From positions 1-45,164 of the forward strand of contig JABSRB010000045.1 in NCBI GenBank assembly GCA_013215375.1: DNA of 45,164 bases, in the 5' to 3' direction. A model generated the notes under the pieces. That model had not been told where the DNA came from and ran no database searches. It saw only the letters and a program-made list of their open reading frames with translations. Position 1 is the stretch's first letter. Every line of letters starts with the position of its first letter. Below, piece after piece: positions 1 through 41,228 of the stretch. This stretch comes from Oceanospirillaceae bacterium. Its GTDB lineage: Bacteria; Pseudomonadota; Gammaproteobacteria; Pseudomonadales; Balneatricaceae. The translations under genes and the position numbers were made by a program.

Positions 1-36
1 GAAGATTGGGTAGAGGGGGCAGTTGAAAGTCTTTAG
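1..36 (+). CDS. 3' end of an unidentified gene (partial)
   Basis: Frame 1 is open from the left edge for 11 codons (EDWVEGAVESL) and ends at TAG 34-36; the other two forward frames close quickly. The stop codon lies in the first unit of a heptamer array (35-52), exactly as in the convergent decarboxylase gene on the other side, where the sequence around the stop is also CTT TAG TCG. That shared layout is the main reason to call this a real gene end. Too little protein is visible to name it. Confidence 0.45.
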   Translation, partial: EDWVEGAVESL

Positions 37-52
37 TCGTGAGTCGTAAGTT
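35..52 (+). repeat. Heptamer array, AGTCGTG-AGTCGTA-AGTT
   Basis: Two full 7-bp units and part of a third follow the presumed stop codon at 34-36. The units belong to the same family as the arrays at 204-237 (read on the minus strand) and 41166-41228. A perfect 10-bp inverted repeat (GTCTTTAGTC 29-38, GACTAAAGAC 57-66) encloses the array and could form a hairpin. Confidence 0.6.
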
Positions 53-203
53 ACAAGACTAAAGACCTACTGTTTTTTGAACTTCTCTGAGAAAAGCAAA
101 GAGCTTTACGTTTTTCTCGGCACTCTCAGTGGTAAATAAAAAAGTGCGATTCAACTAATTAATTGTAAAAAATCTTGTTCAATCGATTAGCTTGGGTTGA
201 ACT

Positions 204-237
204 GACTAACGACTAACGACTAACGACTAACGACTAA
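204..237 (-). repeat. Heptamer array, five units, sense AGTCGTT
   Basis: On the plus strand the unit is GACTAAC, repeated five times with the last copy incomplete. Read in the direction of the decarboxylase gene it is AGTCGTT, and each unit junction makes TAG (CTA on the plus strand at 206, 213, 220, 227 and 234). The copy at 234-236 is the stop codon of the decarboxylase gene itself. The array therefore closes all three frames within 14 bp of the gene end. Further left, near 100-135, a stretch related to the right arm of the 41257-41353 element can be made out in this orientation. Confidence 0.85.
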
Positions 238-1607
238 AGCCCCTCCAACAACCTACATGTTTGTTCAATATCTGCCGCCGTGGTTTTCCAGTTGCTAATC
301 GCGGCGCGAATAGCGCTGTTTCCGCCCCAGAACCCCGGGGTCATAAAAGTCTCGCCACTTGCGTTGATCTGCGTTAGGCACAGTTTTACTTCTGCGTCTG
401 AGCTGTTTTTGGGACGAAACACCACCACATTGAGGTTGCAGGGGGTTAGTAATTCGTAGTGATCACTAGCCTCTATCCACTGCGCTAATTGCAGGGCGTG
501 TTGGCAGTTAGCGGCGATCATTTCGCGATAGCCCTCTATGCCATAAGCCTGCAGTGTCATCCATACGGGGAGCGCGCGAAAGCGCCGTGAATTCTCGATG
601 CCGCGATCCATAAAAGATGGGGCGGCGCTGCCGATGTCTAAATAGGGTGCTGCCACTGAGCATACTTGCTGTAAATACTCTAAATGGCGGGTGTAAAAAA
701 TCCCGCAATCGTAGGGCACATTGAGCCATTTGTGGCCATCGCAAGTGATGGAATCCGCGAGCTCTATGCCTGCACTTAAATCGCGTTTTTCCGGTAGTAA
801 GCGGGAGAAAATGCCAAAGGCGGCATCCACATGCAGCCAAGCGTTGTGTTGCTTGCACAGTGCGGCAATGGCGACTAAATCGTCAAAATCGGTACCGGTG
901 ACTGTGCCAGTGCTGGCGATGACAATCTTACCGGGGCTAGTGTTAGCCGCTAACAGTTTGGCTAAAGATGCAACATCCATCGCCTCGCTGTCTGCTAGGC
1001 AACCTACCGCTTGTATTTGATTGCGGCCAAGGCCCGCGATGGCCATCGCCTTTTGACTACTGGCGTGGGGTGTGGCTGAAAAAACGCTGATATCGGCGTT
1101 GCTAAAACCATCTCTGGCGATATCTATCCCCTGTTGAGCACCGCCAAATTGTCTGGCACAGAGCAGCCCTAAAATGTTGGAGGCGGTAGCACCAGTGGTT
1201 AAGGTGCCCTCAAAACTGTTGGGCAGGTGGAATAATTCACGCAGCCAAGCCAGTGCTTGGGACTCCACTTCAGAGCTGATGGAGTCTCCGCCCTGCGCCA
1301 CATTCTGGTCGGTGCCCGCCACTATCCAGTCGGCTAACAGCGCTGCAGGTGTACAGCCGCCAGTGACAAAACCAAAGTAGCGCGGGCCTGCGGTGGCGCT
1401 TAGGTGTGGTGCGATGCGCTGCTTGAATGCCGCAAAGGCGGCTTGGGTGCCAGTGGTGGTGGGCTCAATGCTATGCGCGGGCAGCTGTGGGTCGTCGACT
1501 AATGCCGCGCGTCGCTGTGGCAATTGCTGTTGAAACTGCGTGATCCACTGGCTGACTTGGGCTGATAGCTGCGCAAAATTTTGCTGATCTGTTTGCATTT
1601 GGCTCAT
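234..1607 (-). CDS. Group II PLP-dependent decarboxylase (aromatic amino acid type)
   Basis: A cytoplasmic pyridoxal-phosphate enzyme that removes the alpha-carboxyl group of an amino acid; aromatic-L-amino-acid/tyrosine decarboxylases and glutamate decarboxylases share this fold. The family signatures are present: HVDAAFG near residue 260 (the Asp that contacts the PLP ring nitrogen) and DGHKWLN near 290, with the Schiff-base Lys at about 293. Length (about 457 residues) is normal for the family. The start is taken at MSQMQT (1607); an in-frame ATG six codons earlier is possible. The gene diverges from a MocR-type PLP regulator, an arrangement typical of a regulator controlling the adjacent PLP enzyme. 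The substrate cannot be fixed from sequence. The TAG stop is inside a heptamer array. Confidence 0.9.
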   Translation of the reverse strand: MSQMQTDQQNFAQLSAQVSQWITQFQQQLPQRRAALVDDPQLPAHSIEPTTTGTQAAFAAFKQRIAPHLSATAGPRYFGFVTGGCTPAALLADWIVAGTDQNVAQGGDSISSEVESQALAWLRELFHLPNSFEGTLTTGATASNILGLLCARQFGGAQQGIDIARDGFSNADISVFSATPHASSQKAMAIAGLGRNQIQAVGCLADSEAMDVASLAKLLAANTSPGKIVIASTGTVTGTDFDDLVAIAALCKQHNAWLHVDAAFGIFSRLLPEKRDLSAGIELADSITCDGHKWLNVPYDCGIFYTRHLEYLQQVCSVAAPYLDIGSAAPSFMDRGIENSRRFRALPVWMTLQAYGIEGYREMIAANCQHALQLAQWIEASDHYELLTPCNLNVVVFRPKNSSDAEVKLCLTQINASGETFMTPGFWGGNSAIRAAISNWKTTAADIEQTCRLLEGL

Positions 1608-1707
1608 GATATATCCCCTAAACATAGATGTGTTTCGATACTGGCTAATCTACGTTAGACTAAAAAAACAATACAGATGCAATTATGTTAAAAATAAAGG
1701 GTACAGT

Positions 1708-3126
1708 ATGGCGTTTCTCTATCGCGAGTTAGCGGATCACTTCACAGCAGAAATAAAGGCAGGCTCACTAGTCGCAGGGGCCAAGATGCCTTCCATTCGC
1801 CATGTTAGCAAGCAGCGTCAGCTGAGTATTAATACCGTGCAAAAGTGTTTTGAACTGCTAGAAGCACAAGGCTATCTGATTGTTAAAGCGCAGTCGGGTT
1901 TTTATGTACGCACCGCCACTCACGCGCTTAAAGAGAGTGTCTTTAGGCCGTTTGAACCGCAAGTTGAGTCTATTGATAATATTAGTCTACTCAATGAAAT
2001 CATCAGTGCCTCCTCTGATCGCAGTAGATTGGCATTGGGTACAATCACTTTGGATGTATCGTTATTGCCGGCTAAAATGTTGCAGAGAAGCCTGCTGCGG
2101 GCGATGCGCAGCCAGCCCGATACTGGTCTAACTTATAGTCCGGTGTGTGGTGAGCCCATATTGCTGCAAGCGTTAGTCGAGCACTTTGCCCAAGATGCGA
2201 TCCATATCAATACCGAACAATTGATTATCACCAATGGAGTGATGCAGGCGTTATCGCTGGCTATTCTCAGTATCTCAAAGCCTGGGGATAGTATTGCAGT
2301 CCCCACGCCTTGTTACAGCGGGCAGTTGTTATTACTGGCCAATTTAGAGCGCAATATCATTGAAATACCGGCCAACTCGCAAGGTATTGATATGCAAGTA
2401 TTAGAGCAAGTGATGGCGTCGGGTGATGTAGCAGGTGCCCTGCTCAGTGCCTGTTATCAAAACCCGCTGGGTTACAGTTTATCGATCGCTGATAAACGTA
2501 AAATTGCGCGCTGGGCAGAGCAGTATCAGTGCCCGGTTATTGAAGATGATGTATTTGGCGAGTGCGGCTATAAGCTGGATAGACCCGCACCGATTAAAAG
2601 TTGGGATAAACAGGGGTATGTGATTTGGTGCGCTTCTTTTTCTAAGACACTGGCGCCGGGTTATCGGATTGGTTGGTGCGCATCCGGACGTTTTACCGAG
2701 CAGTTACAACGCCAGTTACTCAGTAGGAGCTTGGCAGTGAATGCCCCATTGCAATTGGCGCTGGCCGATTTTGTTAACTGCGGGCAATACCGACGACATT
2801 TAAATCGATTGCGCGTGCATTTAGCCACGCAAGTCGATGCGCTCTATCAAAGTGTCAGCCGGCATTTTTCTAAGGATTGTCGCTGCTCAAGGCCCGCTGG
2901 TGGCTATGCGCTTTGGCTACAGCTACCAGAGGCTGTTGATGCCTTCGGCATTTATCAGAAAGCTCTGGAAAAAGGCATTAATATTGTGCCGGGAGTGGTG
3001 TTTAGCGCCGATCAAAAGTATCAAAATTGCCTGCGTTTGAATGCTGGGAATCCATGGAATGAAGAGCTAGATCAGGGCGTTAAAATTTTGGCTGAATTGG
3101 TCAGGGCGATTAATCATTCGGCCTGA
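1708..3126 (+). CDS. MocR-family transcriptional regulator (GntR HTH fused to aminotransferase fold)
   Basis: MocR proteins (GabR, PdxR and TauR are known members) join an N-terminal GntR winged helix to a class I aminotransferase-like domain that binds PLP and senses an amine or amino acid. Here the winged helix covers about residues 1-75 (PSIRHVSKQRQLSINTVQK is the HTH core) and the aminotransferase domain follows a linker; SFSKTLAPGYRIGW holds the PLP Lys at about residue 313. The ATG at 1708 is chosen because AAAGGG precedes it and translation then starts at MAFLYRELADHF, the usual start of the GntR domain; the frame is open upstream but without a good start. Divergent from the decarboxylase with about 100 bp between, so probably its regulator. 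The 3' end overlaps the convergent HTH gene by 17 bp. Confidence 0.9.
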   Translation: MAFLYRELADHFTAEIKAGSLVAGAKMPSIRHVSKQRQLSINTVQKCFELLEAQGYLIVKAQSGFYVRTATHALKESVFRPFEPQVESIDNISLLNEIISASSDRSRLALGTITLDVSLLPAKMLQRSLLRAMRSQPDTGLTYSPVCGEPILLQALVEHFAQDAIHINTEQLIITNGVMQALSLAILSISKPGDSIAVPTPCYSGQLLLLANLERNIIEIPANSQGIDMQVLEQVMASGDVAGALLSACYQNPLGYSLSIADKRKIARWAEQYQCPVIEDDVFGECGYKLDRPAPIKSWDKQGYVIWCASFSKTLAPGYRIGWCASGRFTEQLQRQLLSRSLAVNAPLQLALADFVNCGQYRRHLNRLRVHLATQVDALYQSVSRHFSKDCRCSRPAGGYALWLQLPEAVDAFGIYQKALEKGINIVPGVVFSADQKYQNCLRLNAGNPWNEELDQGVKILAELVRAINHSA

Positions 3127-3859
3127 ATATTTCTAAGATGGGGAAGGGGCCCATGGCATACACCAGTTTTGTGTGTACCAGCTGCTCGCTGGGGTGAAAC
3201 ATCTGATCTTGGGTGGCTAGATAGTCAAAGTCGCGTTTAACTTGGGCCAGTGCTTCTTGAATTTGCGCGGCGCTCTCAACCGTCATCAAACGACTCGCTG
3301 AACTAAAGGCGTAGTCAGCGTTGGCTGCCTGATCGATGCAATGGCAAATATAACGCATATTGGCCTGTTTGATTAAGCCGTTAAGGGGGCCATCTAAACG
3401 CCATCTAATCGGCAAGCTCACTCGATATTTCACTTTGTTATCGGGCTGTAACTCAATCACCCCCAGTTTTTCTAAAGCTCGTAACTGTTGATATATATGG
3501 GCATCGCTCAATTTACATTCGATAGCAATGCGCTTGGTATCAATCCATGACACTAATAGCAGGAGAAAGACAAAAATTTGTGGGTCATCCGCTAACGCTT
3601 GTTCTGTGGCCTGGGGTAAATATTGGGCGCTGCTACTCATGCGCTCTTGCATATCAACTAAATCGGCTAAGCTCATGCCGACAATGGCGCAGATCTCCTG
3701 CAGGCGGCTCATCTTGCAGTCTTTTTCTTTAAATAGACGCTTAACGGTGAGTTCGGAGCAGTGCATAACACCTGCCAGTTTGGCGTAAGTGTAGCCGCGC
3801 GTTTTTAATACCTGTTTTAACACGCCAAACAAGTTATCTCTTTGTTGCTCGTCTTTCAT
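3110..3859 (-). CDS. Cro/C1-type helix-turn-helix transcriptional regulator
   Basis: A 249-residue protein with an N-terminal Cro/C1-like HTH (about residues 10-65; YTYAKLAGVMHCSELTVKRL is the helix-turn-helix). The middle (about 90-150) looks like a second winged-helix segment (LSDAHIYQQLRALEKLGVIE), followed by an alpha-helical C-terminal region with no motif I recognise. Similar-sized proteins of this kind are common in marine gammaproteobacteria and none that I know has an assigned target. The gene is convergent with and overlaps the MocR gene by 17 bp. Confidence is high for a DNA-binding protein and low for any function. Confidence 0.8.
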   Translation of the reverse strand: MKDEQQRDNLFGVLKQVLKTRGYTYAKLAGVMHCSELTVKRLFKEKDCKMSRLQEICAIVGMSLADLVDMQERMSSSAQYLPQATEQALADDPQIFVFLLLLVSWIDTKRIAIECKLSDAHIYQQLRALEKLGVIELQPDNKVKYRVSLPIRWRLDGPLNGLIKQANMRYICHCIDQAANADYAFSSASRLMTVESAAQIQEALAQVKRDFDYLATQDQMFHPSEQLVHTKLVYAMGPFPILEIFRPND

Positions 3860-3893
3860 TAAAGAAAATGTCCATTTTTCAAGTGGTTATAGA

Positions 3894-3930
3894 AATAAAA
3901 AATGGGCATCAGAGTGTTGATGCCCATTTG
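3894..3930 (-). terminator. Rho-independent terminator of the CBS-domain gene
   Basis: A perfect 12-bp stem (AAATGGGCATCA 3900-3911 with TGATGCCCATTT 3918-3929) has a 6-nt loop. Read on the minus strand it is followed by a run of T (A-run 3896-3902 on the plus strand) and lies about 20 bp past the stop of the CBS gene. Confidence 0.85.
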
Positions 3931-3950
3931 CTTTTCTTATGAAAAGCGCT

Positions 3951-4346
3951 TTAGATAAGCGCTAACATAGATTTCAAAACACGGCGTCTAGTAATAACGC
4001 CAATGACTTTGTTGTTGCTATCGACTACAGGGTAGTTTTTCGGTTGCTCGCCGTTCATTTTTTCAGCCAGCGATAGTACCGATTGGTCTGCTGTAACGGT
4101 TAATACTTCTGCACGCATAATGTCTTTAACCGTCGCGACCCGCTCGTTGTGATAGGCCACCTTGGTGATCACTGGTAGGCACTCTTGCTCAGAGATCCAG
4201 CCTAAGAGCATGTTGTTATTATCGACTACAGGTCCGCCTAAGGCTTCTTTCTTAATCAGCTCCATAGAAGCTTCTACTACAGGCATGTCGGCACTTACTT
4301 TGGCAAAATCAGTGTTCATGATGTCTTTAACAGTCACATCTTTCAT
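3951..4346 (-). CDS. Two-CBS-domain protein
   Basis: A stand-alone Bateman module of about 131 residues with two CBS motifs: residues 1-60 (VKDIMNTDF ... LLGWISEQECL) and about 68-128 (VKDIMRAEVLTV ... KVIGVITRRRVL). CBS pairs bind adenosine nucleotides and act as sensors; small stand-alone forms are widespread and their targets are mostly unknown. The start at 4346 is preferred because GAAGGG stands upstream at normal spacing and the protein then begins MKDVTVKDIM; the ATG at 4376 would add ten residues that do not fit the domain. A strong terminator follows, so the gene is monocistronic. Confidence 0.88.
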   Translation of the reverse strand: MKDVTVKDIMNTDFAKVSADMPVVEASMELIKKEALGGPVVDNNNMLLGWISEQECLPVITKVAYHNERVATVKDIMRAEVLTVTADQSVLSLAEKMNGEQPKNYPVVDSNNKVIGVITRRRVLKSMLALI

Positions 4347-4425
4347 TTCATACCCTTCTACATAGTTGATTTTCAATGTTCAAACGATGCGATTAATGCA
4401 TCAGCTGAGACTTATCGAATCATTA

Positions 4426-4473
4426 GGTATCACTAATTGATACCAAACATTTGATTAGTTACAAAATAGTAAC
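4426..4473. promoter_or_regulatory. Two inverted repeats in a divergent promoter region
   Basis: Between the divergent CBS and SMP-30-like genes lie GGTATCA-5 nt-TGATACC (4426-4432, 4438-4444) and GTTAC-6 nt-GTAAC (4458-4462, 4469-4473), each perfect. Both have operator-like geometry. Which protein binds is unknown; the region is AT-rich, so one of the two could be chance. Confidence 0.35.
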
Positions 4474-4523
4474 TTTTATTTTAGTCTGAGTCACCTTAAT
4501 TCAATAACTTGTAGAGAGACGAA

Positions 4524-5381
4524 ATGAAAAATACCGTATTAGCCGCCACTTTAGTAACATTTTTAAGCTGGCAGAATGTGGGCGTAAGTGCTGCGCAACT
4601 AGATTGGTCATTAAGTGATTTTGATCAGCCTGAGTCGGCATTGTATAACCCTGAAAGCCGCGAGATTTTGGTGAGCAACATCAATGGTAGTCCGGTAGAA
4701 ATCAATGGCAAAGGTTATATCAGTCGTGTCTCTGCAAGCGGGGAAATGTTAGAGAAACATTGGGTTGAGGGGATGGACGCTCCCAAGGGCATGGCCTTAG
4801 TCGGTGATATGCTCTACATCGCTGACATGCAAAAATTGCACATGGTGAATACAAAAACCGGCCAGCTGGTTAAAAGCTACTTCGAAGCAAACAGTAAAAT
4901 GCTCAATGATGTCAGTGCTGACGAAAAAGGCAATATCTATGTGTCTGATTTGTTGGGCGGCGGTATCTATCGCTTAAAAGATGATGAATTTAAGCTGTGG
5001 CTCAAAACGGATCTGATCGGTCACCCCAACGGTCTATTAGCAGAACAGCAGAGTTTATATGTGGCGAACTGGGGACAGGGGATGCACGAGGACTTCAGCA
5101 CTGATGAGCTGGGCAAAGTGTATCGATTATCATTGAGTGATCCAAGTGTTGCACCACAAGCGATCAGTGGTCCACTAGGTAATCTAGACGGTTTAGTGCG
5201 TTTCAATGGGGACTTAATCGTCAATGATTGGATTAACGGCAAAGTATTTAAACTCAATGAAGGTAAGGCTGAACAGCTGTTTAATGCCGGTAAAGCGGCT
5301 GCTGATATCAGCCTATTCCAAGACAAGTTGTTAGTGCCGGTGATGTTCGATAATAGATTGGATGTTTATAAACTCGACTAA
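4524..5381 (+). CDS. Secreted SMP-30/gluconolactonase-like (NHL-type) beta-propeller protein
   Basis: A 285-residue protein starting with a Sec signal peptide (MKNTVLAATLVTFLSWQNVGVSA, cleavage expected after VSA), so periplasmic. The mature part has repeated propeller blades with patterns typical of SMP-30/LRE-like and NHL proteins (PESALYNPESREILVSN, APKGMALVGDMLYIADM, LNDVSADEKGNIYVSDL, GHPNGLLAEQQSLYVANWG). The spaced Glu/Asn/Asp residues of the metal-binding gluconolactonases may be present (E near 30, N near 130, N near 170, D near 230), but I cannot confirm them without alignment. A lactonase or a plain binding propeller are both possible. A GAGAGACG stretch precedes the start. The gene stands alone, followed by hairpins at 5413-5453. 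Confidence 0.75.
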   Translation: MKNTVLAATLVTFLSWQNVGVSAAQLDWSLSDFDQPESALYNPESREILVSNINGSPVEINGKGYISRVSASGEMLEKHWVEGMDAPKGMALVGDMLYIADMQKLHMVNTKTGQLVKSYFEANSKMLNDVSADEKGNIYVSDLLGGGIYRLKDDEFKLWLKTDLIGHPNGLLAEQQSLYVANWGQGMHEDFSTDELGKVYRLSLSDPSVAPQAISGPLGNLDGLVRFNGDLIVNDWINGKVFKLNEGKAEQLFNAGKAAADISLFQDKLLVPVMFDNRLDVYKLD

Positions 5382-5412
5382 ATAGTTTTGTTTGTAACGA
5401 AATACGATTGTT

Positions 5413-5453
5413 CTCTACACCCTCAAAGGAGAGTGTAGAGGCGAATTTTTCGC
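5413..5453. terminator. Hairpin pair between convergent genes
   Basis: CTCTACAC (5413-5420) pairs with GTGTAGAG (5433-5440), and a second small stem GCGAA/TTCGC with a TTT loop follows (5441-5453). The pair lies between the convergent ends at 5381 and 5457 and probably ends transcription from both sides, although no long T-run follows. Confidence 0.5.
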
Positions 5454-5456
5454 TGA

Positions 5457-6065
5457 TTAGCCCATGTATTTAGGCGCTATTTCAATTAATAAATAGCTAC
5501 ACAATAGTATCGGGGTAAGGGAGCGCAAAATAGCCAGAGGAATCGAAAAGCCGATGTTGTCGTGTTGTTTTAACTGGTAGAGGCGTTGATAGGCGAAACC
5601 TAGCATAACCACAAGCAACACACTGAGTGCAATGGTAATAGGCAATTGTAAAAATAGGAAAAGCTGGGTGATGCCAATAATAGTATTGCCGATGAGATAG
5701 ACTATTAACAAGAAAGGCCAAACAGCAAGGGTAAATATTCCCAAATAGGAGAGCTCTTCGAAAGATTTATACTCGATAAAATCTTGAACTTCAACGGCTT
5801 CAAAAAACAGGTAGAAGTGAATGATAAAGAGCACTACTGGCACGCTCCAATTGATCAGCCGATAGGCTTTAAATAACACCTTATCGCTTGCAAGGCCCTG
5901 TTTGTAACTCAGGCGAATGATTAAATAGCAGCAGGCGCCAAACAAAAAAGCGCCGACTAATAAGCTATCATAAAGCTTGGGTGCGCCAATAAAGTAACTG
6001 GCAGCGAAGGCCATACCAATGGTCATAGCATGAAAAACGAGGGTGATATTTTCTTTGAAGTGCAT
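5457..6065 (-). CDS. Integral membrane protein of unknown function
   Basis: About 202 residues, almost wholly hydrophobic, with five or six likely membrane helices (around residues 8-25, 33-50, 70-90, 105-130, 135-160, 180-198). I recognise no family. The ATG at 6065 is used; the TTG just before it is a less likely start. No operon partner: the upstream neighbour diverges and the downstream one converges. Confidence 0.6.
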   Translation of the reverse strand: MHFKENITLVFHAMTIGMAFAASYFIGAPKLYDSLLVGAFLFGACCYLIIRLSYKQGLASDKVLFKAYRLINWSVPVVLFIIHFYLFFEAVEVQDFIEYKSFEELSYLGIFTLAVWPFLLIVYLIGNTIIGITQLFLFLQLPITIALSVLLVVMLGFAYQRLYQLKQHDNIGFSIPLAILRSLTPILLCSYLLIEIAPKYMG

Positions 6066-6178
6066 CAATTATATCCGTATAAAAAATGTGAGACGATAGC
6101 AATAACGTTCAATAATGTTCTCATGAATACATTTAAGATCAAAGAATTAATAAAGCTTCCTTATGGTAGAGAGAATAC

Positions 6179-6802
6179 ATGGATTCAACACAAATTATTG
6201 CCTACGCACTGGCGTTAGGTATTGCCGCGGCTATTCCCGGCCCCGGGATGATCGCGCTGGTGGCCCGTAGCTTAAGTGGCGGAGCGCTCAGTGGCTTTGC
6301 ACTGTTAGCTGGCATTATTCTGGGGGACTTAGTCTACCTCTCTTTTGCCGTATTTGGCTTGGCGCTTATTGCACAGAGCTTTCACTGGCTTTTTGTACTG
6401 ATCAAATGGGGATCAGTGCTGTATTTGAGTTGGCTAGCTTGGCAGTTCTGGCGCGCTAAAACACAAAGTATTGATGTGATGAGCAAACCCGGCACTAAAG
6501 ATTTATTGGCGGCTGGCTTATCGGGTTTAAGTATTACTTTAGGTAATCCCAAAACCATCGCTTTTTATCTGGCGTTATTACCGGTAGTAATAGATTTACA
6601 GGCGATTAGCTTGAGCAGTTGGGCCACAACACTAGTCCCGTTAACGGTGGCGGTATTGTTAATCGTTGGCGCTGTGTTTGTGCTCGGGGCCGTCGCTATC
6701 AGGCGCGGTTTAACCAGTGCACGAGCTCAGCAGTTTATCTATCGCGGTGCCGGCACCGCAATGTTTTTAGCGGCGGGCACACTGGTCAGCAAAGAGTTGT
6801 AG
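6179..6802 (+). CDS. LysE/RhtB-family amino acid exporter
   Basis: A 207-residue inner-membrane protein with the family pattern: an N-terminal helix with AAIPGPGMIALVARSLSGG (residues 14-32; the conserved PGP motif), a central GLSITLGNPKTIAFYLALLP (the NPK signature) and about six hydrophobic segments. Members export amino acids such as lysine, arginine, homoserine and threonine; the substrate here is unknown. GAGAG precedes the ATG. Thirteen bases past the stop begins a heptamer array and then the hairpin repeats. Confidence 0.88.
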   Translation: MDSTQIIAYALALGIAAAIPGPGMIALVARSLSGGALSGFALLAGIILGDLVYLSFAVFGLALIAQSFHWLFVLIKWGSVLYLSWLAWQFWRAKTQSIDVMSKPGTKDLLAAGLSGLSITLGNPKTIAFYLALLPVVIDLQAISLSSWATTLVPLTVAVLLIVGAVFVLGAVAIRRGLTSARAQQFIYRGAGTAMFLAAGTLVSKEL

Positions 6803-6815
6803 GTGGGAGTTAGAA

Positions 6816-6836
6816 AGCTAAAAGCTAAAAGCTAAA
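6816..6836 (+). repeat. Heptamer array, three AGCTAAA units
   Basis: Three exact AGCTAAA units start 13 bp after the LysE stop codon, in its sense direction. TAA at 6819, 6826 and 6833 falls once in each of the three frames. The same unit opens the array at 41166, where it contains the gene's real stop codon. Confidence 0.85.
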
Positions 6837-6844
6837 ATATCTCA

Positions 6845-6988
6845 GGTTTTCTCTGTGTAGCGAAGCGCCTCTGTGCCCTCGGTGGTAGATAGTCTTTAAA
6901 AAATTTTTCACCACAGAGGGCACAGAGAACACGGAGAAAGATTAAGAAAAGACAATCGAGAGCTAAAAGCTAAATATTTTGATTCTAT
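6845..6988 (+). repeat. Imperfect hairpin repeat element, copy A
   Basis: First copy of an element with two inverted arms: a left arm ending CTCTGTGCCCTCGGTGGT (around 6869-6886) and a right arm ACCACAGAGGGCACAGAG (6910-6927), which pair with a single mismatch across an AT-rich loop. An outer stem can form between TTTCTCTGTG and the AACACGGAGAAA side, interrupted by TAGCGAAGCGC. The unit closes with two AGCTAAA heptamers (6961-6974) and some AT-rich bases before copy B begins. Short spurious reading frames arise from such repeats in many genomes. Confidence 0.8.
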
Positions 6989-7121
6989 GGTTTTCTCTAT
7001 GTAGCGAAGCGCCTCTGTGCTCTCGGTGGTAGAAGTCTTTAAAAGATTTTTCACCACAGAGGGCACAGAGAACACGGAGAAAAGATTAAGAAAAGACAAT
7101 CGAGAGCTAACAGCTAAAATA
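6989..7121 (+). repeat. Imperfect hairpin repeat element, copy B (tandem duplicate)
   Basis: The element of 6845-6988 is repeated head to tail with few changes, including the sequence after the right arm (AGATTAAGAAAAGACAATCG) and two heptamers (AGCTAAC, AGCTAAA; 7105-7118). The period is about 144 bp, so heptamers and hairpin were duplicated as one unit. Confidence 0.8.
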
Positions 7122-7161
7122 AATGTGTTGATGAACTTTATGTGACTGCGAAACTTTCTTG

Positions 7162-7233
7162 CTCACAGCTCACAGCTCACAGCTCACAGCTCACAGCTCA
7201 CAGCTCACAGCTCACAGCTCACAGCTCACAGCT
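7162..7233 (-). repeat. Heptamer array, about ten units, sense AGCTGTG
   Basis: The plus-strand unit CTCACAG runs without mismatch for about 72 bp and ends 2 bp from the stop codon of the convergent PhoH gene (TGA, 7236-7238 on the plus strand). Read in the PhoH direction the unit is AGCTGTG with TGA at each junction, so all frames close repeatedly. The perfect identity of all units suggests recent expansion by slippage. Confidence 0.9.
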
Positions 7234-7235
7234 GT

Positions 7236-8015
7236 TCAAGCGCACATCACTGGTGGGCGCATGTGCGGTAGGCAGCCGTAGCCTTCCACTATCTGCTGCA
7301 CTAGGCCAGAGCGCACTATGTCTTGTTGCTCGAAGTGTATGTAGCCGACATTGCTCAAGCTGGCAAAGCGGTTCACTGCATCACTGAGCCCTGACTTCAC
7401 CTTGATGTCTTTTTGCGAGATATCGCCGTTAATCACCACTTTGGTATTTTCGCCGATGCGGGTTAAAAATAACTTCATCTGCCCTTCGCTGGTATTTTGC
7501 GCTTCATCTAATACCACAAAACACTCTTTGAAAGAGCGACCGCGCATGTATGCCAGCGGTGCCATTTCTATTTGGCCGGCTTTTATTAACGCTTTCACGT
7601 GACCTGCGCCTAAGCGCTCTTCGAGAACTTCGCGAAACGGGGTGAAGTAGGGGGCGAATTTTTCCTCGATGGAGCCCGGTAAAAAGCCCATGTTTTCCTC
7701 GGCCTCAACCACTGGCCTCGTGATGACGATCTTTTTTACTTCTTTGGCGAGCAGTGCCTCGGCGGCTTTGGCGGCGCAGACCCAAGTTTTCCCCGTGCCG
7801 GCAGGACCTGTGGCAAAAGTCAGCTGGTTGCTATCAATACTTTGAATGTAACGCTGTTGGGATTGGGTTCGCGGCTCTATGGGGGAGGTATTGCGGCGTA
7901 TTTGAAAGTCTTGAATCAATGGCGCTTGACTGAACTCGATAATGTTTAAGTGGCTGTTAGTGGCTCTACGCTTGGCTTTTTTACTCTCTTTACGTTTGCT
8001 TCTATATTGAGTCAT
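7236..8015 (-). CDS. PhoH-family ATPase
   Basis: A cytoplasmic P-loop ATPase of about 259 residues. Walker A is FATGPAGTGKTW (about residues 67-78), Walker B FVVLDEAQN (about 170), and the GDISQKDI segment is the helicase-like sensor of PhoH proteins. PhoH homologues are linked to RNA metabolism and phosphate starvation, but their role is not settled. The N terminus is very basic (KRKESKKAKRR), which fits nucleic acid binding. The ATG at 8015 is preferred over that at 8027 because GGGA lies six bases before it. The stop codon abuts a heptamer array. Confidence 0.88.
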   Translation of the reverse strand: MTQYRSKRKESKKAKRRATNSHLNIIEFSQAPLIQDFQIRRNTSPIEPRTQSQQRYIQSIDSNQLTFATGPAGTGKTWVCAAKAAEALLAKEVKKIVITRPVVEAEENMGFLPGSIEEKFAPYFTPFREVLEERLGAGHVKALIKAGQIEMAPLAYMRGRSFKECFVVLDEAQNTSEGQMKLFLTRIGENTKVVINGDISQKDIKVKSGLSDAVNRFASLSNVGYIHFEQQDIVRSGLVQQIVEGYGCLPHMRPPVMCA

Positions 8016-8262
8016 CGTTTTTCCCATCTGTGCAAGATGCGACTGTTAGAGCAGCTAAAACAATCATGTCTACAGTCGCCTCTCTCATTAAAGTGAACAA
8101 ACTGATGTGGGTTAACGTTGTGCTTAATTCTATCCACATACTAGTTGTAGCGTAGGGGTGTGAATAAATTATGACAGTGGAGAAAAAGAAAAAAAACCAC
8201 TCATCCAGTTATCCACAAAGTATGTGGGCTCGAGGAGCGGCAAAGGGTTTTAAACGGAGTTG

Positions 8263-34437: not shown

Positions 34438-34485
34438 TCAATACTGCGCTCCCGCTTCCCCCCTCAGTTTCAGAAAGAATAACCG

Positions 34486-35186: not shown

Positions 35187-35207
35187 TTCAGGATATAGAG
35201 AAAAGTA

Positions 35208-35933
35208 ATGATAGGAAATCCAGTAAAAGGTGGTGGTTACGCACTGCGAGCGGTACATCTACTCTCAGAGAAAAAGTTGCGAGTATTTGTCTTAATCCCG
35301 CTTGTTATCAACATTGTATTATTCTCAGGTGCGCTGTATTTTATGTTTACCCAGTTGCCGGGTTGGATCGCTAGCTGGTTGAGCTTCCTGCCTAGTTTTC
35401 TGTCATTCTTAGAGTATGTTTTGTACCCGCTGTTTGCCGTGACCGCAATGTTGATGGTCTATTATGGCTTTAGCATTTTGGCCAATATCATTGCCGCCCC
35501 TTTTAACGGTATTCTCTCTGAGCGCGTGGAGCAGATGTTGGCTGGGCGCGAAGTAGCTGAGGAGAGTTTTAAAGAGCTGCTGGCTATTATCCCGCAGTCG
35601 ATAGGCCGTGAGTTATCTAAGTTGGCTTATTATATCCCCCGCGTTATCTTGTTATTAATATTGAGCTTTATCCCCGGAATTAATCTCTTTGCGCCGTTTT
35701 TCTGGTTCTTGTTTGGCGCTTGGATGATGGCGGTACAGTACTGTGATTACCCCATGGACAATAATAAGGTGAGTTTCAAAGAGATGTTAGTGTTGTTAAA
35801 GAAGCAACGCATGACCAGCTTAGGCTTTGGCGCAGTAGTACAAGTGGCAATGATGGTGCCTATCCTAAACTTTATTATGATGCCAGTGGCGGTGATTGGC
35901 GCGACTATTTACTGGGTAGAAGAGCACCGTTAA
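35208..35933 (+). CDS. cysZ: Sulfate transporter CysZ
   Basis: A 241-residue inner-membrane protein of the CysZ/EI24 family, which takes up sulfate for cysteine synthesis. The features are IGNPVKGGGYALRAVHLLSE at the N terminus, four or more long hydrophobic helices, LANIIAAPFNGILSERVEQM (about 90-110) and FLFGAWMMAVQYCDYPMDNN (about 165-185). Length is close to the E. coli protein (253). Last gene of a small operon and followed by a strong terminator. Confidence 0.92.
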   Translation: MIGNPVKGGGYALRAVHLLSEKKLRVFVLIPLVINIVLFSGALYFMFTQLPGWIASWLSFLPSFLSFLEYVLYPLFAVTAMLMVYYGFSILANIIAAPFNGILSERVEQMLAGREVAEESFKELLAIIPQSIGRELSKLAYYIPRVILLLILSFIPGINLFAPFFWFLFGAWMMAVQYCDYPMDNNKVSFKEMLVLLKKQRMTSLGFGAVVQVAMMVPILNFIMMPVAVIGATIYWVEEHR

Positions 35934-35956
35934 ATTATCATCAATAGCGATCCAGT

Positions 35957-35990
35957 AAAAATCCCGCCCCTATGTCGCGGGATTTTTTTT
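35957..35990. terminator. Bidirectional Rho-independent terminator
   Basis: ATCCCGC (35961-35967) pairs with GCGGGAT (35977-35983), loop 9 nt, followed by a T-run (35984-35990) and preceded by an A-run (35957-35961). It lies between cysZ and the convergent mioC and can serve both. Confidence 0.92.
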
Positions 35991-35992
35991 GA

Positions 35993-36436
35993 TTAAAGCT
36001 CGCGGGCCCAGCTCTGCGCCCAAGGCACCGCCTCAAGCTCTGGCTCTAACGTCTCGCAGGAGTCAATGCTGAGCATTTCTTTTGTTTCCCTGCCCTGAAG
36101 TTTTAGCAGTATTTGCTGCATTTGCCGACCGCCACCGCAAAAAGTATCACCATAACCACTGTCTCCGAGAGCGATGACAGCAAAGGGGGTGTTGGTGATC
36201 AAGGGTAATTGGCGGTGAAGCTGCAAGTAAAAGTCTTCCAGGTTTAGCGGAATGTCACCTTGGCCGGTGGTTGAAGTAATCACTAAAATGGCACTGGCCT
36301 GCTGTAATTGCGCCACACCCGGTGAGCTGTATTGCTCTGCACTGTGGCCATCAGCGATTAAAGCGTCAGTGACAAGATCGGCAACTTCGCTAGCATTACC
36401 AAACACAGAACCTACAAATATTTTAATATCAGCCAT
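35993..36436 (-). CDS. mioC: Flavodoxin-like protein MioC
   Basis: A 147-residue FMN-binding flavodoxin of the MioC type. IKIFVGSVFGNASEVADLV (residues 3-21) is the phosphate loop, ILVITSTTGQGDIPLNLEDF (about 52-71) and VIALGDSGYGDTFCGGGRQ (about 88-106) are the isoalloxazine loops. MioC proteins have been linked to biotin synthesis as electron carriers. The start MADIKIF at 36436 follows TAAGG at good spacing and gives the family length; the open frame upstream adds 34 atypical residues. Confidence 0.9.
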   Translation of the reverse strand: MADIKIFVGSVFGNASEVADLVTDALIADGHSAEQYSSPGVAQLQQASAILVITSTTGQGDIPLNLEDFYLQLHRQLPLITNTPFAVIALGDSGYGDTFCGGGRQMQQILLKLQGRETKEMLSIDSCETLEPELEAVPWAQSWAREL

Positions 36437-36760
36437 CATTAACCTTAAATAATTATCAGAAATTAAGGGCAACACCCTCCTATATTCGGCTGTTGGACAC
36501 CTTTTTAGACGCCGGAAGATAACGTCGTAGCAAGGCACGAATTGTAGTAAATGGTTGTTCCCTTTACAAGATTGGTAACGCCGCTAGGGCGAGATTTAAC
36601 TAGTATAAATAGGTGTAGCGCCTTCACTCATTGAGTGAAAATTGATTTAGCAGTATTTTACCTATAACTCATAAGCTTGGCGCTAATTAATAGCGACTGC
36701 CAAATTTAGCATCATAATACAACGACGTTTATTTATCAGTGCCGAGTTGAGCAGAACTCT
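36437..36760. other. Intergenic region with one short perfect palindrome
   Basis: About 320 bp between mioC and the end of phoR without a supported gene. It holds TTCACTCA-T-TGAGTGAA (36623-36639), a perfect 8-bp dyad of operator type. The region lies 5' of mioC and 3' of phoR, so the palindrome could act on mioC, although it is about 190 bp from its start. Confidence 0.4.
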
Positions 36761-38053
36761 CTACAACTCAACCAAAGTCTCCAGTGGAAAGAGGCAGCTA
36801 AAAGTACTGCCCTTGCCCAATGCGCTGTCGATGTTTAGCTGGCCCTGATGTCTCAACACCACATTTTTTACTATCGCTAAGCCCAATCCCGAACCACCAG
36901 TGTCTGAAGATCTGTCATCATCCACACGGTAAAATCTTTCAGTTAATCTATCTAAGTGAATGGAGTTAATCCCTGGGCCATTATCAGTGACACTAAAGTA
37001 GCCGCCATGGTCATCACAGCGCCAGAGGATTTTGATTTCGCCACCCTCTGGGGTGTAGCGCAAGGCATTGTAAAACAAGTTGGAAAAGGCGCTATGCAGT
37101 TCTTTTTCCTTGCCTACTAGGCCGATGTTTTCTGCGAGATCAACACTGATATGATGTTTTTTCCCCTCGGCGGCCTGCTCGGCGCTATCCAGTATCGAGA
37201 TAATTAAGCGAGAGACATTAATGGGCTCATCATCTAGGTTCATTTCAGTGGAGTCTAGGCGTGATAGCGTTAATAAATCGCCAATTAAACTCTGCATTCG
37301 GTCTGACTGTTGCTGCATTTGCAACATCGCTTTTTGCAGTGGCCTAGGTAAATTTCCCTGATCTAAAAAGGTTTCTAAATAGCCGCGAATAACGGTGAGC
37401 GGAGTGCGCAATTCGTGGGAGGCGTTGGCGACAAAATCTTGTCTGGTCTGCTCTAAACGGGTGAGGTCACTAATGTCACGTGCCACTAAGAGCTTTTCAG
37501 ATTCACCAAATTCGGTGATGGTATATTGCAGTTCAATGTTGGCGTTGTGTGGGCTTTTTTGCAGTAGTGGTTCGCTGTAATCACCGCGCTGGCAGTAGCG
37601 AATAAAGCTGGGATCGCGCAGAATATTAAACAGTGGTTTATCTTGATCTGACTGGTTTTTTAGCCCGAGCAATTGCTCGCTAGCCAAGTTCCACCACTGC
37701 ATATTAAATTGCTGGTCCAGTATTACCACAGCGTCTTTAAGGGCGGCGGAAAACTGTTGGAACCTGCTTAGTTTGTCCAGAAGTTGGGATTCACGAGAGC
37801 GGCGAATTTTACGGATGCGGTACAAGTGATCAAAGACATCGCCCCATTCCCCTTTAGCATCTGGTGGGTCTGTCACTAACTCTTGAGCGAGCCAGTGCTG
37901 CAGTTTGCGCAACTGGTGTATTTGCACCACTGACCAGATGAATAGCGCCAGCGCCAAAGTGTCAGCTATGTGGCCAATTAGCCAGCCGATAAATAGGGCG
38001 CAGGCTAAAAGCAGTGAAAAATGAGTAATAGCGCGGCTGGAAGCTTTTAGCAA
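36761..38053 (-). CDS. phoR: Phosphate regulon sensor histidine kinase PhoR
   Basis: A 430-residue membrane kinase that phosphorylates PhoB when phosphate is scarce. Two N-terminal hydrophobic helices (about 10-45), a PAS domain (about 95-195; LKDAVVILDQQFNMQWWN), the H box with His213 (FVANASHELRTPLTVIRGYL) and the ATPase domain (NLFYNALRYTPEGG, SVTDNGPGI, DTGGSGLGLAIVKNV) are in the PhoR order and the length matches E. coli PhoR (431). Downstream of phoB on the same strand, separated by about 130 bp. Confidence 0.95.
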   Translation of the reverse strand: MLKASSRAITHFSLLLACALFIGWLIGHIADTLALALFIWSVVQIHQLRKLQHWLAQELVTDPPDAKGEWGDVFDHLYRIRKIRRSRESQLLDKLSRFQQFSAALKDAVVILDQQFNMQWWNLASEQLLGLKNQSDQDKPLFNILRDPSFIRYCQRGDYSEPLLQKSPHNANIELQYTITEFGESEKLLVARDISDLTRLEQTRQDFVANASHELRTPLTVIRGYLETFLDQGNLPRPLQKAMLQMQQQSDRMQSLIGDLLTLSRLDSTEMNLDDEPINVSRLIISILDSAEQAAEGKKHHISVDLAENIGLVGKEKELHSAFSNLFYNALRYTPEGGEIKILWRCDDHGGYFSVTDNGPGINSIHLDRLTERFYRVDDDRSSDTGGSGLGLAIVKNVVLRHQGQLNIDSALGKGSTFSCLFPLETLVEL

Positions 38054-38186
38054 AAGTGGCGTCCTGAGTAATGGCTAAAATAGAGGGTAAATAATTAGTG
38101 TTCATCGTTTTGGCTGAGCACTCACTATACGGAGCCTAAATCAAAAAGCTCAGAGACACCACTGCTAGTTGATAGTTGTGAGTAAG

Positions 38187-38882
38187 CTATTGAGTTTGCG
38201 TGGAAAAACGATAGCCTGTGCCACGTACCGTCTGGATTAAATACTCGTGGCGCTCCCCTAACGCTTTACGCAGACGCCTGATATGCACATCCACGGTACG
38301 CTCTTCTACATAGACATTACCACCCCACACCATGTCTAATAGCTGTGTGCGTGAATAGGCGCGATCTTGATGGGTCATAAAGAACTGTAGTAACCGATAT
38401 TCGGTGGGACCTAGGTCTAAGGTGCTTCCCTCGGCACTGGCGCGGTGTGAAATAGGGTCGAGGATCAGTTGATCAACCTCGACAATTTGATCGACTCCCT
38501 TGGGAGTCACTCTGCGCAGTACCGATTTTAAACGCGCGACCAGTTCACGGGGCGAGAAGGGCTTGGTAATGTAATCGTCAATACCCGCCTCAAGGCCATG
38601 TACCTTATGATCTTCATCATCGCGGGCAGTGAGCATGATAATGGGGATGTCGGCGGTTAGCGCATCGCTGCGCAACCTGCGGGCTAATTCAATACCGCTC
38701 ATTTTTGGCATCATCCAATCGAGTAGCACCATATCAGGTTGTTGATCGATGATGATTTGGTGAGCCAGATGCGCATTGTCAGCCTCCAGACAATGAAACC
38801 CTGCCATCTCCAACGCAACCGCAATCATTTGCCTGATAGAAGACTCATCGTCGACAATTAGAATTTTTTTCGCAGATCCCAT
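38187..38882 (-). CDS. phoB: Phosphate regulon response regulator PhoB
   Basis: A 231-residue OmpR-type response regulator. The receiver has the acidic pair D11/D12, the phosphoacceptor D55 (VLLDWMMPKMSG) and Lys in DDYITKPFSPREL; the DNA-binding domain (about 130-228) ends in VDVHIRRLRKALGERHEYLIQ and VRGTGYRFS. Activates phosphate-scavenging genes by binding Pho boxes, one of which lies 89 bp upstream of its own start, as in other bacteria that autoregulate phoB. Confidence 0.96.
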   Translation of the reverse strand: MGSAKKILIVDDESSIRQMIAVALEMAGFHCLEADNAHLAHQIIIDQQPDMVLLDWMMPKMSGIELARRLRSDALTADIPIIMLTARDDEDHKVHGLEAGIDDYITKPFSPRELVARLKSVLRRVTPKGVDQIVEVDQLILDPISHRASAEGSTLDLGPTEYRLLQFFMTHQDRAYSRTQLLDMVWGGNVYVEERTVDVHIRRLRKALGERHEYLIQTVRGTGYRFSTQTQ

Positions 38883-38970
38883 CTTTTACCTCTTTGTCCC
38901 TAACTGTTATCTGCCTACATAATGGCGAGATCACATATATTGAGTGTGGCTACTATTACAAATCAAATTT

Positions 38971-38988
38971 GTGACAGAAATGTTACAA
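38971..38988 (-). promoter_or_regulatory. Pho box upstream of phoB
   Basis: On the minus strand the 18-mer TTGTAACATTTCTGTCAC has the two direct 7-bp halves (TTGTAAC, CTGTCAC) spaced by 4 bp as in the Pho consensus CTGTCATAAAACTGTCAT; the second half is nearly perfect and the first weaker. Its position 89 bp before the phoB start suits activation. Confidence 0.7.
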
Positions 38989-39011
38989 CGCGAAATAAAT
39001 ATTGCTGTTAG

Positions 39012-39875
39012 TCAGTAGGCATAATCGAGCACGATAGCGATAAATACAGCCAAACCGGCGTAGTGGTTATTAAGAAAGGCTTTAAAACACTGCTCGCGCA
39101 CTCTATCTTTGGTTAAATATTGTTGATAGCCAAAGAAACCAGCCATGACCACTAACCCCAAGTAGTAAATAATGCCTAAACCAGCACTGATGCCGACAGC
39201 CACAAACAGGCACAAAGTGGTGCACTGTAATATTGCATTGATTAGATTGTCGTATTTTCCAAACAAGATAGCCGTTGATTTCACGCCAATTTTTAAATCG
39301 TCGTCTCTGTCGACCATGGCGTACATCGTATCGTAGGCGACAGTCCAGCAAATTTTGGCAAAGTACAGTAGCCAGGCAATCAGCGGCAATTGTTCAGTGG
39401 TGGCGCTAAAGGCCATGGGGATGCCGAAGCCAAAAGCGGCACCTAATACCAGCTGCGGTAACTGAGTGAACCTTTTCATAAAGGGATAGCTAAAGGCGAG
39501 TAACAAAGCGGCAAACGACAAGTACACCGTCATTGCGTTGGTGGTCAGTAGTACCAGTAAAAACGCGGCACCCATCAATACCATAAACAGCGCTACCGCC
39601 TCTTTAGTGGAAATCAATTTTTGCGCCAGAGGGCGGTTAGCGGTGCGTTTTACTTTGCCGTCAATCTTACGGTCGGCAATGTCGTTAATCACACAACCTG
39701 CGGAGCGGGTGAGAAATACGCCTAAGGTAAATACCAGCAATAAGGTTAAATCGGGCAGCCCCTCACTGGCAATCCACAGTGCGCTAAGTGTGGGCCATAG
39801 CAGTAAATAACTACCGATAGGTTTGTCAAAGCGGGTGAGCTGCAGATAGATATTAAAACGCTGGGAGAGAGTCAT
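39012..39875 (-). CDS. ubiA: 4-hydroxybenzoate octaprenyltransferase
   Basis: A 287-residue membrane prenyltransferase that attaches the polyprenyl chain to 4-hydroxybenzoate in ubiquinone synthesis. The two Asp-rich motifs are [20 protein letters not shown] (about residues 64-83) and [20 protein letters not shown] (about 185-204); eight or nine hydrophobic helices surround them. Two bases separate it from ubiC upstream, so ubiC-ubiA is an operon. Confidence 0.96.
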
Positions 39876-39877
39876 AG

Positions 39878-40453
39878 TCAGGGTCTATTTTTTCTGTTGG
39901 TCAAAAGGGCTGGTGTGTAATGGGTTGTCGCCAGTATAGGTAAAAATACCTCGCAGACCAATAGTGGCTTACCCGAGAGATAAAAAACAGAGCGTCGCGC
40001 CCAAACTTTCTCACCGCTATCTAGCTGCAGCTGGCATATCTGGAAAGTGCCACGGCGCATCGTTGGGTCAGAAAATAATACACTGCCGAGTGAGCGGTTG
40101 CCCAAGTTGGCTAACTGCTGGTATTTGCCGGTTAAGGTGGAAGCGGGAATCACTGTGCGCGCTAGCACGTAGGTCTGATCATTGCCCTTGAGCTCCACTT
40201 CACGAATTAACGCCGCCTGGCGATTTTTTAGCTTTAGTACTTTCGCTTCACTGCGACAGGGAATAGCCCAACCCTGTTGTTTTAATGCCACTTTAAAATG
40301 ATGGTTACTGGCGGCGATTAAGTGCGTGGTTAACGAGCCCCTGTCTAACAGCCAGGCTCGCCAAGGACGCGGTGCCTGTAAATTAGTTGGTCGTTGATAA
40401 GTGCTCCAGCGAGTGTCAAAGTTCGTTGCTAATAATGTGTCTTTGATGAACAA
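39878..40453 (-). CDS. ubiC: Chorismate--pyruvate lyase
   Basis: A 191-residue cytoplasmic enzyme that converts chorismate to 4-hydroxybenzoate and pyruvate, the first step of ubiquinone synthesis. [21 protein letters not shown] (trimmed, about 29-49), [20 protein letters not shown] (about 84-104; the Arg/Glu ligand region) and [20 protein letters not shown] are family motifs. First gene of ubiC-ubiA; its product feeds UbiA directly. Confidence 0.93.
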
Positions 40454-40595
40454 ACCTTTGCTCCCGGGTAATGCTTGAAGGTTAAAACCTGATAAAATGT
40501 AGGGAACAGTGGAAATTCCCTGCTATTGCGGCTGAATAATAGCGACTTATGAATTTTGAATACAGCAGTCTATCGTAAAATTGAGTAATAATTAA

Positions 40596-41171
40596 ATGTC
40601 GACAAACACCGAACAACAACAGCTTGAACTCTGTACTTCCTGGTTACAAAAAGTAGTGATTGGCATGAACTTATGCCCTTTTGCTAAACCTGTGGATAAA
40701 GCTGGCGGTATTCACTATGCCATTACTCAACAGTCTCAGCGCCAAGAGTTACTGATGTTTTTTGCCGAACAATTGCAGCTTATAGCGCAGGCAAAAGACA
40801 CTGAAATAGCGACTTCGCTGGTGATTTATCCCCATGGTTTAGATGATTTCTACGACTATTTAGATTTTTTAGCGCAGTGCGAAAAGCTATTGGACAGCGG
40901 CGGGCACAGTGGCGTGTTCCAACTGGCTAGTTTTCACCCGCAGTATTTATTTGGCGGTGTCGACGCCACTGATTTAAGTCACTGGAGCAATAGATCCCCT
41001 TATCCCATCATCCATATCATTCGCGAGCAGCAAATGAGCGAAGTGTTGGCAAAGCACCCCAACCCAGACGCCATCCCCGAGCGCAATATCGCCTTTTTAC
41101 AAGCGCTGGGAAGTGATGAGTTGATTAAACGTTTTCCGCCGTTTGGTGATTATGCGAGGGGAGAAAGCTAA
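40596..41171 (+). CDS. DUF1415 family protein
   Basis: A 191-residue cytoplasmic protein of the conserved DUF1415 family: CTSWLQKVVIGMNLCPFAKPV at the N terminus (CPFA motif), VIYPHGLDDFYDYLDFL, FQLASFHPQYLFGGV and RSPYPIIHIIREQQM are hallmark stretches. The function is unknown. The stop codon TAA (41169-41171) lies inside the first unit of a heptamer array. Confidence 0.88.
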   Translation: MSTNTEQQQLELCTSWLQKVVIGMNLCPFAKPVDKAGGIHYAITQQSQRQELLMFFAEQLQLIAQAKDTEIATSLVIYPHGLDDFYDYLDFLAQCEKLLDSGGHSGVFQLASFHPQYLFGGVDATDLSHWSNRSPYPIIHIIREQQMSEVLAKHPNPDAIPERNIAFLQALGSDELIKRFPPFGDYARGES

Positions 41172-41228
41172 AAGTCATAAGTCATAAGTCATAAGTCATT
41201 AGTCATTAGTCATAAGTCATTAGTCGTT
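41166..41228 (+). repeat. Heptamer array of nine mixed units
   Basis: Nine consecutive 7-bp units: AGCTAAA, three AGTCATA, two AGTCATT, AGTCATA, AGTCATT and AGTCGTT. The first unit includes the real TAA stop of the DUF1415 gene. Within one array the unit seen at the LysE gene (AGCTAAA), the AGTCAT forms and the unit seen at the decarboxylase gene (AGTCGTT) stand together, so the arrays in this window belong to one family. Every unit junction carries TAA or TAG. Confidence 0.95.

Follow-up and report, generated by a model that had tools for sequence, protein, structure and literature searches.

Tandem heptamers with the units GGGAATC or GGGGA(C/T)T are mostly intergenic in Xanthomonas and Nostoc, and the available part of that report places downstream arrays mostly 0-50 bp past the stop codon on the coding strand, some overlapping the stop, and upstream arrays near the start codon mostly on the non-coding strand (PMC4692102). 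Convergent pairs number 70 in Xcc and 75 in Xac, Nostoc has few pairs and a preference for the non-coding strand, array positions are largely conserved between the two Xanthomonas, and a general link to mobile elements is not reported in that part (PMC4692102). Direct repeats of TAACTGA occur in Beggiatoaceae, Cyanobacteria and Bacteroidetes, and their stop codons in three frames have been noted; according to the accessible sections, they lie mostly near start codons in the BOGUAY genome, their AG strand directed outward from the gene, and a Microcystis sample of 24 sets is mixed, with 6 facing starts, 8 opposite and 8 between stops (PMC4679880). Repetitive extragenic palindromes (REPs), 20-40 bp long with GTAG or CGTC tags and often with REP-associated tyrosine transposase (RAYT) genes, form together with bacterial interspersed mosaic elements (BIMEs) a class of hairpin elements found after genes and between convergent genes, where the GTAG ends often double as the TAG stop codon of the adjacent gene (PMC3733652, in the portion available). 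Here we describe tandem arrays of AGYYRNN heptamers in a 45,164-nucleotide stretch from an Oceanospirillaceae bacterium (assembly GCA_013215375.1, contig JABSRB010000045.1; hereafter the window), in the rest of its genome and in related genomes.

The window is an entire contig (C40) of a genome of 5.0 Mb in 96 contigs (G000). An earlier note had listed five heptamer arrays of one family in it, each following a gene and written in the sense of that gene at its stop codon, and all five are present by sequence and by Tandem Repeats Finder. Arrays were collected from the window and 60 fetched stretches of the same genome, 49 picked around array matches and 11 not, which after merging gave 57 stretches of 1,090,908 bp in total; genes in the sampled stretches were called with a simple hexamer-based caller. 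This sample holds 83 arrays, of which 75 were usable for placement and orientation; of the other eight, two lacked an orientation and six were flanked by at most one called gene, never closer than 30 bp.

The period of 7 bp is near-exclusive. It accounts for 82 of the 89 exact tandem repeats with a period of 5-15 and at least three units in the G000 sample, the periods 5, 6 and 8-15 contributing 0-2 arrays each (7 in total), while periods 2-4 gave many short runs, as expected. Against periods 5, 6 and 8-10, the counts of period-7 arrays were 83 vs 0-4 in G000, 25 vs 0-1 in the congener G006 and 47 vs 0-2 in G008, which belongs to another genus of the same family; in the congener G004, 2 period-7 arrays in 304 kb stood against 0-1 for each other period, and the excess is not clear. 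Across the whole G000 genome, three consecutive AGYYRNN units matched 490 times and the reversed pattern 34 times. The main units AGCTAAA, AGTCGTT, AGCTGTG and AGTCATA contain no GGG, which is present in a few rare units, and none of the 83 arrays has TAACTGA or its reverse as main unit. The G000 counts are probably lower bounds because the assembly breaks at heptamer arrays; contigs start or end in or beside arrays at C2:1, C19:81522, C23:1, C35:50071, C47:35981, C69:1, C84:1 and 6101, and at 14-55 of the window.

Arrays lie on the rims of the intergenic space. A 3' gene end is no more than 15 bp away from 46 of the 75 arrays, against a mean of 10.0 and a maximum of 19 in 1000 random intergenic placements, and the corresponding count for 5' ends is 5 of the 75 vs 11.3 expected; common ancestry among the arrays makes them non-independent events in these statistics. 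None of the 77 arrays used lies inside a gene. The gaps that bear arrays are 26 convergent, 23 tandem and 4 divergent, vs 89, 331 and 145 of all gaps of at least 60 bp. Within 20 bp of a gene, the AG strand points away from it for 44 of 46 arrays at 3' ends, where this is the gene sense that the earlier note had described, and for 5 of 5 at 5' ends; arrays at gene starts are antisense to their gene because the outward polarity holds there too. Thus, both the enrichment at stop codons and the orientation bias relative to the preceding gene hold up, and the G000 sample did not give the outcome that the earlier note had named as fatal to its idea, namely the lack of either. The rule of gene sense at stops is nevertheless too narrow, and a direction outward from the gene at both ends fits better.

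The same polarity was scored in the congeners G004 and G006, in G008, and in G193 and G099, which belong to other families. Orientation followed the AGYYRNN pattern at first and was widened to NGT units after inspection of G008, so that the widened rule is post hoc for G008; it was fixed before G006, G193 and G099 were scored. Stretches of G193 and G099 were picked around AGYYRNN matches and those of G006 were not picked by arrays. The G193 and G099 sets also include arrays of at least three AGYYRNN units that had escaped the period-7 detector; these make up 13 of 23 G193 rows and 2 of 12 G099 rows, and their orientation was taken from the AGYYR strand. Within 20 bp, arrays point outward at 9 of 10 3' ends and 1 of 2 5' ends in G006 and at 2 of 2 3' ends in G004. 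The 3' count in G008 is 11 of 13 under the widened rule and 5 of 8 under the original AGYYRNN rule. G193 gave 10 of 10 at 3' ends and 4 of 5 at 5' ends, and G099 gave 4 of 4 and 2 of 2, together 14 of 14 and 6 of 7; counts at 5' ends are small in all genomes. Arrays lie near stop codons more often than at random in G006 too, where 9 of 23 are within 15 bp vs 2.9 in random placements, a count reached in 1 of 1000.

Plain neutral slippage, with no special geometry and with placement as a by-catch of intergenic space, would fit the quick changes of copy number between orthologues described below. It is very improbable, as other periods between 5 and 15 are nearly absent, the placement at stops exceeds all 1000 random placements, and the orientation is outward in 44 of 46 cases.

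Neighbouring arrays tend to face each other. Among those no more than 350 bp apart, 11 pairs in G000 and 7 in G008, 18 altogether, point inward and none outward, and 10 are direct (5 in each genome). In G000, 31 of 82 arrays have inverted family heptamers within 300 bp on their inner side and 1 of 82 has them on its outer side; the corresponding counts are 13 of 46 vs 1 of 46 in G008 and 4 of 9 vs 1 of 9 in G193. Facing arrays fold as stems. A dispersed palindrome that carries CTCTGTG, with 66 matches at 50 places in a search of the G000 genome, has its core within 250 bp of 43 of 81 arrays exclusively on their inner side, of 5 exclusively on the outer side and of 1 on both sides. Among the matches listed, units appear by eye to be paired with particular ends of the interior, for example AGCTAAA with TATCTCAGGTTTTCTCTGTG and AGCTGTG with AGCAAGA. 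One facing pair in G193 (L191) encloses a GC hairpin with a T-run.

The five arrays of the window lie in three gaps. At the left end of the window, a gene that is MarR-like by eye enters on the plus strand and ends at the TAG at 11-13, the codon at which the orthologue in L092, the syntenic stretch of G004, ends SLTAKIG*. Six in-phase degenerate heptamers follow at 14-55 on the plus strand and point away from this gene: AGGGGGC (14-20), AGTTGAA (21-27) and AGTCTTT (28-34), and then AGTCGTG, AGTCGTA and AGTTACA. The stop codon that the earlier note had placed inside the first unit of the array at 35-52 is therefore not there, the gene ending 21 bp before the array; the stop positions given for the other four arrays (204-237, 6816-6837, 7161-7233 and 41166-41231) are correct. 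Across an interior at 56-203, the minus-strand array (AGTCGTT) x4.9 at 204-237 faces the first; it is in the sense of a pyridoxal phosphate-dependent decarboxylase gene at 234-1625 on the minus strand (Pfam PF00282, E 7e-51), whose TAG at 234-236 lies inside it. In the second gap, a LysE-type translocator gene at 6179-6802 on the plus strand (PF01810) is followed on the same strand at 6801-6837 by AGGTGGG, AGTTAGA and an A, and then by (AGCTAAA) x3; the first degenerate unit overlaps the stop TAG at 6800-6802, and the exact AGCTAAA array at 6816-6837 starts 13 bp past it. The facing array, (AGCTGTG) x10.4 at 7161-7233 on the minus strand, lies 2 bp after the TGA at 7236-7238 of a PhoH-like gene (7236-8027, minus strand; PF02562, E 6e-76), and between the two arrays the CTCTGTG palindrome forms a tandem pair at 6845-7118 (144-bp period, 1.9 copies). 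In the third, a DUF1415 gene at 40596-41171 on the plus strand (PF07209) has its TAA at 41169-41171 within the first unit of the plus-strand array at 41166-41231, which is made of AGCTAAA, AGTCATA, AGTCATT and AGTCGTT; a copy of the palindrome (88% identity, plus strand) lies on its inner side at 41260-41361. A simple scan of 6750-7300 gave no GC hairpin with a T-run that would be a terminator. Apart from the heptamers, a 45-bp tandem repeat (2.3 copies, 77% match) occupies 45064-45164 at the contig end and overlaps an open reading frame that runs off the contig.

The reading we favour, with roughly even confidence, is that each array arose by separate amplification of an outer arm of a hairpin element between genes. 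The arms would be tandemly amplified ends of inverted-repeat elements, facing each other across a palindrome or a terminator hairpin, and because they face each other the AG strand of each would run into the intergenic space, away from the gene that it abuts, at whichever end. Units would be gained, lost and replaced in 7-bp steps. We propose that the scarcity of other intergenic DNA at the gene border lets arms extend that far, and that the promoters and ribosome sites at gene starts account for the predominance of 3' ends, which would imply selection behind the 3' preference. Lone arrays would then be remnants or variants of the same elements, the elements may be mobile, and slippage may be what amplifies the units. 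Copying of the arms from one another was also considered and is not supported, as the same unit is present in both arms in 1 of 11 inward pairs in G000 (0.5 expected) and in 0 of 7 in G008.

Several observations weigh against amplified arms of hairpin elements. The two arms of a pair are mostly of different units. A strict inverted partner is missing on the inner side of 51 of 82 arrays in G000, and the palindrome core is lacking there for 37 of 81; inverted family heptamers are as frequent on the inner as on the outer side in G006 (1 of 24 each) and in G099 (0 of 9 each). Solitary arrays stand at stop codons at C13:51266, C21:15034 and C24:62538. The polarity is weaker with distance, arrays at any distance pointing outward for 51 of 60 at 3' ends and 11 of 15 at 5' ends in G000, 10 of 14 and 6 of 8 in G006, and 21 of 31 and 11 of 13 in G008. 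When gene ends of both kinds are taken together, G006 arrays exceed random proximity only weakly (10 of 23 arrays vs 6.1, reached in 55 of 1000 placements). Of the terminal inverted repeats and target-site duplications that mark miniature inverted-repeat transposable elements, inverted arms are observed, and neither a target-site duplication nor a clean empty site was found at the orthologous loci compared. Finally, no transposase could be linked to the arrays, and the array-rich congeners G001, G002 and G005 (drafts, 87-94% complete) have no match to PF01797, the RAYT family.

Arrays turn over quickly between species. Of 17 array loci at 3' ends in G000 that were sought in G004, 8 were found, and in all 8 the protein ends agree to within one residue. 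In this comparison of orthologues, which the earlier note had asked for, arrays of one species are absent, shorter or of a different unit in the other: G004 has no array at 6 of the 8 loci, a single unit at 1 and a different unit at 1 (C8:67066), where AGCGGTG x6 stands in place of the AGCTGTG x13 of G000. At C21:15034 the G004 gene stops at the corresponding codon and has no array. In L092 the gap between the PhoH-like and LysE-type genes has one copy of the palindrome and one full AGCTGTG, vs two copies and 10.4 units in the window, and in the left gap the two arrays abut and face each other with no interior. By eye, L092 also has, from 17697, a 35-bp block of five different heptamers that is tandemly duplicated beside the MarR-like gene.

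The earlier note had suggested that the arrays end translation in any frame and so limit readthrough or release ribosomes. Indeed, outward 3' arrays have a stop codon in the sense direction in 42 of 44 cases in G000 and 11 of 11 in G008, above letter-shuffled units, and the DUF1415 gene ends on an array stop. However, a sense stop is similarly common in the G000 arrays at other positions (26 of 30). Among the 44 outward 3' arrays of G000, 31 have a stop codon on the opposite strand as well, so that stops alone do not explain the orientation. In G006 a sense stop is present in 4 of 9 outward 3' arrays, below shuffled units (6.1), and the other 5 lack one. Sixteen of 52 distinct unit classes lack a stop; this, together with the G006 count, indicates that placement is independent of a three-frame stop. 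A GGTCGTT x10 array at C12:79684 in G000 is placed and oriented like the others with no sense stop, and the published Xanthomonas unit GGGAATC, as we read it, has no stop in any frame. Stop codons in the units are dispensable for placement. Since the polarity is also seen at gene starts, stop-less units are placed alike and protein ends agree at 8 of 8 loci, we regard a frame-independent stop as highly unlikely. If the arrays are arms of hairpin elements, the stops in their units would be incidental and used only where an arm took over the native stop. The DUF1415 gene may be such an exception to unchanged protein ends, judging from the sequences: in four of six congeners its product ends ..DYA* (G006), ..DYT* (G002 and G005) or ..DY* (G003), while in the window it runs four codons beyond DYA to the stop in the array. 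In G004 it is also extended, with a stop outside an array, and in G001 the end is different.

A selected RNA function in the 3' untranslated region, whether as extended terminator stems, as exonuclease blocks or as sites for an RNA-binding protein with one 7-nucleotide unit per subunit, would agree with how strongly the arrays favour 3' ends (46 of 75 within 15 bp) and with the stable stems that facing arrays give. The array at C13:44934 separates the stop from a terminator-like hairpin which, by eye, G004 also has, and the available part of the TAACTGA report discusses binding of CspB with one heptamer per protein (PMC4679880). We consider such a function unlikely, since at 5' ends the arrays run antisense to the gene, G004 lacks the array at 6 of 8 loci, the unit can differ between orthologues (C8:67066), and the window has no Rfam match at the gathering score.

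The near-exclusive period of 7 in G000, G006 and G008 would also be expected if an enzyme made the arrays, by templated or nick-primed addition of 7 nucleotides that begins at an AG and proceeds outward from the gene. The first periodic base coincides with the A1 position for 10 of 14 arrays in G006, 10 of 22 in G008 and 19 of 70 in G000, the unit of a whole array can differ between orthologues (C8:67066), and the polarity is alike in the other families (G193 and G099). We find this explanation improbable, because no candidate enzyme was found, G004 has no clear excess of period-7 arrays, and the duplicated five-unit block in L092 suits ordinary slippage or recombination. RAYT genes do not track the arrays: among 30 chosen genomes, PF01797 matched in 12 of the 15 that are rich in arrays and in 8 of the 15 that are poor in them. 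Where adjacent units differ, mismatches at positions 1-7 number 5, 3, 5, 3, 9, 12 and 14 in G000 (39 pairs), 4, 1, 4, 13, 0, 6 and 5 in G006 (24 pairs), and 7, 6, 3, 12, 12, 7 and 13 in G008 (35 pairs); these counts give no profile common to the three genomes that would show AG held by constraint in diverged units.

Two PF01797 genes of RAYT type lie near each other in G000 at C66:7922-11075 (L151 and L152), the first flanked by copies of an end like GGGGTCAGAGTAAATTGAT; by eye, no heptamer arrays were seen beside either gene. An origin from RAYT and REP elements as the sole driver was rejected, as the C66 loci have unrelated ends and no heptamers and RAYT genes do not follow the arrays. The CTCTGTG palindrome also forms clusters in G000, some of them tandem, at C58:44-388, C63:8425-13217, C88:117-446 and C92:1794-3530; in the parts examined these are mostly without heptamer arrays, and by eye small genes lie between the copies in a cassette-like manner.

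AGYYRNN exceeds its control several-fold in 7 of 7 genomes of the genus (for example, 116 vs 16 in G004), and the family genomes with an excess are G008 (173 vs 38), G011 (52 vs 6) and G035 (135 vs 65, only twofold). Within the class, the excess is unevenly spread over 274 genomes, with for example 379 vs 3 in G178, 64 vs 2 in G099, 58 vs 0 in G193, 51 vs 4 in G071 and 30 vs 0 in G181. By our reading, 12 of the 274, G000 among them, reach 15 or more matches of three consecutive AGYYRNN units and three times their control. In G064, G180, G249 and G140 the reversed-pattern control is about equal to the pattern or above it, which hints at other heptamer families or low-complexity DNA.

A single polarity law for unrelated heptamer families in distant bacteria, in which the AG or GT strand is directed outward at both ends of the neighbouring gene and the unit border lies at A, is a doubtful generalisation, and the mixed Microcystis sample in the published sections, with 6 sets facing starts and 8 opposite (PMC4679880), lowers its chances further. 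If true, it would imply a dedicated and undescribed activity that writes 7-nucleotide units outward from gene borders. A shared outward polarity that includes antisense arrays at starts would speak against explanations from stop codons or quadruplexes, and it is a simple rule that can be tested in any genome. The earlier reports on Xanthomonas, Nostoc and Beggiatoaceae are separate, with different proposed roles (quadruplexes, translation control), and no statement of a polarity common to these families was found in the passages covered, all from open-licence papers.

Compared with known systems, the arrays, as proposed hairpin elements, resemble REPs and BIMEs in their intergenic position after genes and between convergent genes, but have tandem heptamer arms and no RAYT link that we found (PMC3733652, available portion). 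They resemble the TAACTGA repeats in that the reverse of that unit, AGTTATC, fits AGYYRNN, and the polarity is the same as in BOGUAY; unlike that one fixed unit, which in BOGUAY lies mostly before starts, there are many units here, mostly after stops (PMC4679880, accessible sections). Placement at stop codons, of which the earlier note was not aware, was already published for the Xanthomonas and Nostoc heptamers. Judged by the available part of that report, the present arrays differ from those G-tract, quadruplex-forming units in their AGYYRNN sequence, their fast turnover and their frequent position beside a palindrome, and are like them in forming intergenic arrays of period 7 that lie on the coding strand at stops and on the non-coding strand at starts, and, as in Xanthomonas, in forming convergent pairs (PMC4692102).

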